A stretch of 64,000 nt of DNA from Nocardioides sp. (GTDB taxonomy: Bacteria > Actinomycetota > Actinomycetes > Propionibacteriales > Nocardioidaceae), in contig PBYI01000033.1 of the NCBI GenBank assembly GCA_002729525.1, positions 62,001 through 126,000 on the forward strand, given 5' to 3'. The first letter of the stretch is position 1. Every line of letters begins with the position of its first letter. A model generated the notes under the pieces. It worked only from the letters and a program-made list of their open reading frames with translations, searched no databases and was not told the DNA's origin. A program made the position numbers and the translations under genes. Shown in pieces: positions 8,005-46,169 of this stretch.

Positions 8005-8433
8005 ATGATCGCGCTGCACCACGTCCAGGTCGCCTGCCCGCCGGGCGGGGAGGACGCCGCCCGCACGTTCTACGGCGCCGGGCTCGGCCTCGTCGAGGTC
8101 GAGAAGCCCGAGCCGCTGCGCTCGCGGGGTGGGGTCTGGTTCCGCGACGTCGACTCCACCGAGACCGGCGCCGACCCGGCGCTGGCCGAGCTGCACGTCG
8201 GCGTGGAGGACCCGTTCGTGCCCGCGCTCAAGGCGCACCCGGCGTTCCTCGTGGGCGACGTGGTGGCGCTCGACCTCGTCGTGGCCCGGCTCCGCGGGCT
8301 CGGGGTCGTCGTCGACGAGAGCCAGCGGACGACCTTCCCGGGCTACGAGCGCGTGCACGTCTCCGACCCGCACGGCAACCGGGTCGAGCTGCTCGGGCGC
8401 CCCGGCGTTGGCCAGGACCCGACGCTCGGCTGA
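8005..8433 (+). CDS. VOC family (glyoxalase/dioxygenase-like) protein
   Basis: IALHHVQVACPPGGEDAARTFYGAGLGL ... YERVHVSDPHGNRVELL. Confidence 0.88.
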   Translation: MIALHHVQVACPPGGEDAARTFYGAGLGLVEVEKPEPLRSRGGVWFRDVDSTETGADPALAELHVGVEDPFVPALKAHPAFLVGDVVALDLVVARLRGLGVVVDESQRTTFPGYERVHVSDPHGNRVELLGRPGVGQDPTLG

Positions 8434-8676
8434 GGCTGTCTCCGGCGGGTCGCCGTGTCCGTGGCGTGATGTCCCGGGGGGCTTCGCCGCGCGCGCGACC
8501 CGGTCCGACATCTGTGCAGGTCAGCGCGTAACTTGTGCGTCGCCCTCGCGTTGACGTGAGTAGGTGCAGCACACCCCGACCCGTCGGGGGATGCCGCGCC
8601 GACAACCGGTTGGGGGACCGGGAGGCATGGGGACGGGGTGACCAGCACCCCGCAGGCACGCCAACCAGGAGGACAC

Positions 8677-8934
8677 GTGCTTCAGGAGCAGAGGGCGACC
8701 GCCGTCGTCAACCGGGTCAAGCGCGCCCAGGGCCAGCTGGCCGGCGTGCTGCGGATGATCGAGGAGGGGCGTGACGTCGACGCCGTCCTCCACCAGGTGA
8801 AGGCCGTCTCGGCCGCCATCGACCGCGTCGGGTTCGCGCTGGTGGCCCAGGAGTGGAGCAAGCACGTCGACGACGACTCGGTCGGCACCGACGAGCTCGC
8901 CCGGCTCGAGAAGCTCGTCCTCGGCCTCTCCTGA
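8677..8934 (+). CDS. CsoR/RcnR/FrmR (DUF156) family regulator lacking cysteines
   Basis: NRVKRAQGQLAGVLRMIEEGRDVDAVLHQVKAVSAAIDRVGFALVAQEWSKHV matches the DUF156 helices; AGGAGG upstream of the GTG start. Confidence 0.88.
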   Translation: MLQEQRATAVVNRVKRAQGQLAGVLRMIEEGRDVDAVLHQVKAVSAAIDRVGFALVAQEWSKHVDDDSVGTDELARLEKLVLGLS

Positions 8935-8979
8935 CCGGCCTCTTGCCGCCCGAAGTTACCGAGCGGTAATCTCGGCCGC

Positions 8980-9456
8980 ATGAGCCCGGTCCTCGCCCTC
9001 TGGCAGCGCACCAGCACCCTTCCCGTCGTCGGGTCGACCGTCGGCAAGCGGGTCTTCTCGGCCGCCTTCTCGCTCAAGGCGCCCTACTTCCGCACCATCC
9101 GGCCGCGGTTCGTCGAGATCCGCCCCGACTACGCCGAGCTCGTCATTCCCAAGCGCTGGGGCGTGCACAACCACATCGGCACCCTGCACGCCATCGCGCT
9201 GTGCAACGGCCTCGAGGCCGCCATGGGTGCCCTCGCCGAGGCGAGCATCCCCGACGACAAGCGGTGGATCCCGCGCGGCATGGAGATCCAGTACACCGCC
9301 AAGGCCACCAGCGACGTCACCTGCGTCGCCGAGACCGACCGCGAGCAGTGGACCGGCGACGACCCCAAGCTCCCGGTGCGCGTCACCGGCCGCCGCGAGG
9401 ACGGCACCGTCGTCATCGAGGGCGTCATCGAGCTCTGGGTGACGCCCAAGAAGTAG
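8980..9456 (+). CDS. hotdog-fold DUF4442-type thioesterase-like protein
   Basis: VPKRWGVHNHIGTLHAIALCNGLEAAMGALAEASIPDDKRWIPRGMEIQYTAKA. Confidence 0.75.
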   Translation: MSPVLALWQRTSTLPVVGSTVGKRVFSAAFSLKAPYFRTIRPRFVEIRPDYAELVIPKRWGVHNHIGTLHAIALCNGLEAAMGALAEASIPDDKRWIPRGMEIQYTAKATSDVTCVAETDREQWTGDDPKLPVRVTGRREDGTVVIEGVIELWVTPKK

Positions 9457-46015: not shown

Positions 46016-46169
46016 GTCGCGTTTCGGGGTCTCGAGGGCGTCGCTGAGGGACACGAGGCACAAGGTGCACTAGGCGCCCGCACCAGACTCCCGGCAGGGG
46101 CTACTCCGCGACGTAACGGTCGTCACAGTCCCGCGTTGAACGGGGCGTACCCGACCTCCGGAGGCAGCG

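Follow-up and report, generated by a model that had tools for sequence, protein, structure and literature searches.

The Locus and Its Product

The stretch of DNA analyzed here (the window, 64,000 nucleotides from Nocardioides sp., contig PBYI01000033.1) carries at 8677-8934, on the forward strand, an open reading frame for a protein of 85 amino acids without a single Cys. The frame opens with a GTG codon that lies 4 nt downstream of a ribosome-binding site, AGGAGG (8667-8672, forward strand), and its translation matches PF02583, the profile of the CsoR/RcnR/FrmR/CstR superfamily, at 68.8 bits, the cut-off being 22.8, in keeping with an initial annotation that had recognized a Cys-less member of this family. 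An AlphaFold2 calculation using the clade alignment described below yields a three-helix model of high confidence (pLDDT 89.6) whose 18 best PDB matches are InrS, CsoR, CstR and FrmR entries, all members of the family, with E-values that are modest because the protein is short. A Cys supplied by another start or frame could be ruled out, as none was found, and the in-frame open region 5' of the gene, including an alternative GTG at 8638, is equally free of Cys, so that the Cys-less state stands. Comparison of orthologs, which at least 27 of 150 Nocardioides genomes contain and whose close pairs have dN/dS values of 0-0.14, establishes that the reading frame is not a product of chance.

The gene is bordered upstream by a VOC/glyoxalase-family gene (8005-8433) and downstream by a DUF4442 gene (8980-9456), both on the forward strand. 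The absence of an adjacent copper, nickel or formaldehyde gene, noted initially, is thus confirmed, and neither a rhodanese, a TauE nor a thioredoxin motif is found beside the gene. A perfect palindrome resembling a TetR operator, TTACCG-AG-CGGTAA, is located between the Cys-less gene and DUF4442 (8956-8969) and probably controls the latter.

Sensor Positions

All of the characterized family members that we have considered sense through a Cys at one position, denoted X in what follows. In our alignment X is Val34 (codon 8776-8778, forward strand, as are the codons below) and Cys in every reference used. Position Y is Glu59 (8851-8853), where CsoR, RcnR, FrmR and InrS have His, S. pneumoniae CstR has Asn and the closest Cys-containing relatives, which have two Cys residues, have Gly, while position Z is His63 (8863-8865), a Cys in the two-Cys relatives. 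The Val34/Glu59/His63 fingerprint agrees with the substitutions of Val for Cys and Glu for His that had been read from the sequence at the outset. Comparison of the Cys-less proteins with their two-Cys relatives reveals four sites at which the groups are fully split, C34 to L/V/T, A42 to K/R (Lys42 in the window, codon 8800-8802), G59 to E/D and C63 to a variable residue, and a fifth, T39 to N/H, at which the split is nearly complete. A sensing Cys at X or Z is found in 0 of 31 members of the Cys-less clade, and Z may be occupied by S, H, A, T, Q, G, R or N.

The initial annotation had offered new ligands as one of three options, and His39 and His63 are indeed present in the window's copy. Across the clade, however, N or H predominates at position 39 and any of eight residues occurs at position 63, and no conserved His could be found in the clade alignment, making a new metal site so unlikely that we give it almost no weight. 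The fold and the helix-1 residues that contact DNA are shared with CsoR, RcnR, InrS and FrmR, all of which, unlike the present protein with its Val34 and Glu59, retain a Cys at X together with a His at Y. The formaldehyde-crosslinked pair of FrmR, Pro2 and Cys35 (PMC5146963), is likewise absent, the corresponding residues being Leu2 and Val34.

Origin of the Cys-Less Clade

The nearest relatives of the protein are encoded in named Nocardioides genomes. The closest are all Cys-less, and nearly all members of the next shell have exactly two Cys residues, 29 positions apart, and Gly at Y. When 70 sequences are placed in a tree, the 31 Cys-less proteins fall into a single clade (100/99) nested in the two-Cys group, with CsoR, InrS, RcnR, FrmR and S. 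pneumoniae CstR falling outside both. The clade persists when additional two-Cys Nocardioides sequences are included (100/98), and the Cys-less proteins still group together, with a support of 92, after removal of columns X, Y and Z. The comparison by alignment and tree that had been proposed with the annotation thus yields one Cys-less clade in which no Cys-bearing member was found, establishing a trait of the clade rather than decay of one gene. The tree, with its 84 columns, leaves unsettled which two-Cys protein is nearest to the clade. Four more divergent Cys-less members were kept outside the tree and have the chromosomal slot and K42/E59 in common.

On the strength of this nesting (100/99) the Cys-less clade descends from a CstR-like two-Cys group and not from CsoR or RcnR. 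Several properties make the actinobacterial two-Cys parents look like CstR-type sensors of reactive sulfur. They have Cys at X and Z and a residue other than His at Y, their Cys spacing is that of Cys37 and Cys66 in ScCsoR, and a perfect ScCsoR operator, ATACCn6GGTAT, is present at 44 of the 47 two-Cys loci scanned. At the one locus checked for sulfur genes (L024) the two-Cys gene adjoins rhodanese, MBL-rhodanese and TauE genes; at L013 and in the C3 copy of the window's own genome it adjoins DUF302. Among solved structures, moreover, the profile of the Cys-less clade matches S. pneumoniae CstR best. The original framing in terms of metals and formaldehyde was therefore off, since the parent group is CstR-like and its position Y is not His in any case, with reactive sulfur the likely ancestral signal. 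L242 (in genome G071) and L013 also have, near the CstR-like operator, a small open frame rich in Cys (MCR..CRTC.KTTW.GCG) that runs divergently from the two-Cys gene or from the partner of that gene.

Distribution and Chromosomal Slot

The count of at least 27 genomes comprises 23, the window's own included, and 4 further genomes with the more divergent members. Every Cys-less locus inspected with its flanks retains the neighbors of the block on at least one side. Outside Nocardioides no Cys-less member was encountered among the top matches and 33 further sequences, a sample rather than a census, in which nearly all have two Cys residues; two relatives (L260 and L275) have lost the Cys at Z and kept that at X. 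From three additional loci no protein could be read.

In species that do not have the Cys-less gene the VOC and DUF4442 genes remain neighbors. DUF4442 could be located in 21 genomes that have no Cys-less match, and in 19 of these no family member lies within 1.5 kb of it. In two species (G071 and G024) the slot is occupied by a two-Cys protein together with a thioredoxin gene, and for this reason the slot gene has probably lost its Cys residues once, even though a sister relationship of these two proteins to the Cys-less clade is not resolved in the tree. To judge from position, the simplest history would be that of a single slot gene, initially of the two-Cys type, whose two Cys residues disappeared in one branch while other branches lost the gene altogether.

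DNA-Contact Surface and Selection

Residues R14, R16, R17 and Q41 of EcFrmR contact DNA (PMC5146963). They correspond to R13, K15, R16 and Q40 here, the first three of which lie in the helix-1 contact segment NRVKRAQGQLAGVLRM (8710-8757, forward strand), and all four are invariant or nearly so across the Cys-less clade. Specific binding to DNA as a tetramer is a trait of the family, and what the sequences show of it here is the conserved contact residues only. Values of dN/dS are 0-0.04 for six close pairs and 0.11-0.14 for two; more distant pairs (0.34-0.48) were set aside because dS is unreliable at such distances. Judged by these rates, the fold and the DNA-contact surface are under purifying selection.

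Recent decay of the gene is ruled out by the 31-member clade and the low dN/dS values. A slower loss of function is conceivable, given that Cys-less branches are longer than two-Cys branches and that so many genomes (the 19 of 21 above) have no family member beside DUF4442, yet a functionless, decaying regulator is highly improbable in light of the low dN/dS, the invariant contact residues and a conserved upstream element. Nor was a broken copy found among those read.

Upstream Region and Candidate Operators

The upstream element, GTAAC-N16/17-CGTT, precedes 22 of 26 Cys-less genes and in the window takes the form CGTAAC-N16-CGTTG (8527-8553, forward strand). It looks like an ECF-type promoter, although this function is putative. 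A longer form occurs 7 times in the window's own genome and 0 times for a reversed control. The other copies in this genome lie mostly 5' of genes for signal-peptide proteins, among which no clear regulon emerges. In two cases (window 46112-46138 and G000:C20:36195-36221) the form CGTAAC(G/C)GTCGTCACA...CGTTG stands before genes of apparently secreted proteins, and these copies perhaps belong to one sigma-factor regulon.

Downstream of the promoter-like element the window contains a perfect inverted repeat, CCCCGAC-CC-GTCGGGG (CCCCGACCCGTCGGGG, 8574-8589), a weak candidate auto-operator that is not significant when taken alone (shuffle p = 0.09). Palindromes 3' of the element number 6 at Cys-less loci against 1.9 expected, and the spacer of the element contains a C-tract/G-tract in 8 of 22 cases against 1.75 expected, both counts coming from related species. 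Such a tract would suit a CsoR-type auto-operator and is suggestive as a lead. We claim no operator from the palindromes or the tracts because the species are related and the window's spacer has no tract, the palindrome at 8574-8589 being present instead. Three related species (L121, L122 and L125) have long C-tract/G-tract inverted repeats 5' of the Cys-less gene as well as CstR-like operators at -77 to -104 upstream of it.

The CstR operator ATACCn6GGTAT, with up to 1 mismatch allowed, does not occur in the window, and it is found at 3 Cys-less loci and absent from most. The window's own genome has one perfect match, which has no C/G tracts, and 14 sites with one mismatch; the use of these 15 sites to name targets was dropped, as a reversed control gave 8.

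A Probable Sulfur-Blind DNA Binder

How might such a protein work? Cysteine mutants of two relatives provide a guide. The C37S/C66S mutant of ScCsoR binds DNA and is not released by polysulfide (PMC7533328), and the C39A/C68A mutant of TTHA1953 binds DNA and ignores both oxidant and Cu(II) (PMC10318464). Because these mutants bind and do not respond, a Cys-less member with intact contact residues is most likely a sulfur-blind binder. We therefore favor, with a probability of roughly 0.6, a natural sulfur-blind DNA binder derived from a CstR-type repressor, a reading based on sequence and on analogy with these mutants. The ancestor of the Nocardioides orthologous group would have been a CstR-type two-Cys repressor, probably in the same slot, that lost both sensing Cys residues once as purifying selection held the fold and the DNA-contact surface. 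Its descendant would serve as a repressor, or at least as a protein occupying DNA, and would not be released by persulfide or polysulfide; control would lie in the amount made, perhaps with autoregulation. DNA binding, the absent sulfur response, repression and autoregulation are all properties that we infer. Among the three possibilities raised at the outset, the sequences best support a protein that binds DNA and has no thiol-gated response.

Relative to CstR-type sensors (ScCsoR, the CstR proteins of S. pneumoniae and S. aureus, and TTHA1953), the protein is alike in fold, in helix-1 contact residues and in a position Y that is not His, and differs in having neither sensing Cys and in its fixed K42 and E/D59; in the window its gene, unlike that of CstR, has neither the CstR operator nor adjoining sulfur genes. 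Since ATACCn6GGTAT is missing here and at most Cys-less loci, DNA specificity may have changed. A conserved natural clade of this kind shows that the family's DNA-binding half can be maintained by selection once its known sensing half has been lost. In the open-access literature we have not come across a natural family member that is Cys-less (most subscription papers lay outside the search). The occurrence of two-Cys and Cys-less proteins in one slot of sister species offers a natural comparison for the passage from a redox sensor to a fixed repressor or to a new signal.

The fixation of K42 and E/D59 together with the loss of Cys may indeed reflect a new signal rather than none. L/V34, K42 and E/D59 would then make up a site or a switch that responds to an effector other than a thiol or metal, an anionic metabolite for example, and the protein would still be a ligand-responsive repressor. 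This proposal accounts for the complete split at four positions around the old sensor and for the strong selection, and would represent a natural CsoR-family lineage that has exchanged thiol or metal sensing for another signal. Neither a ligand nor a linked pathway is evident, however, the VOC-DUF4442 adjacency persists in species without the gene, and the charges could equally lock a single conformation, so that we consider it rather unlikely, if the most credible of the alternatives to a sulfur-blind binder.

Less probable still is a role in modifying two-Cys paralogs, through mixed tetramers or competition for operators. Many Cys-less genomes, including that of the window, also encode such paralogs, and the CstR-like operators upstream of three Cys-less genes would fit as well, but at least 6 Cys-less genomes (G048, G070, G083, G094, G102 and G112) give no second match at E <= 1e-6, so that the role cannot be general.

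Two such paralogs were noted in the window's own genome. One (G000:C50:12255-12512; L083, L141) is an intact two-Cys gene with a thioredoxin gene for a neighbor, the arrangement seen in the G071 slot. The other, the CstR-like gene beside DUF302 (G000:C3:68483-68705; L085, L142), is interrupted by a frameshift close to the codon for its first Cys and may be a pseudogene or the result of an assembly error.
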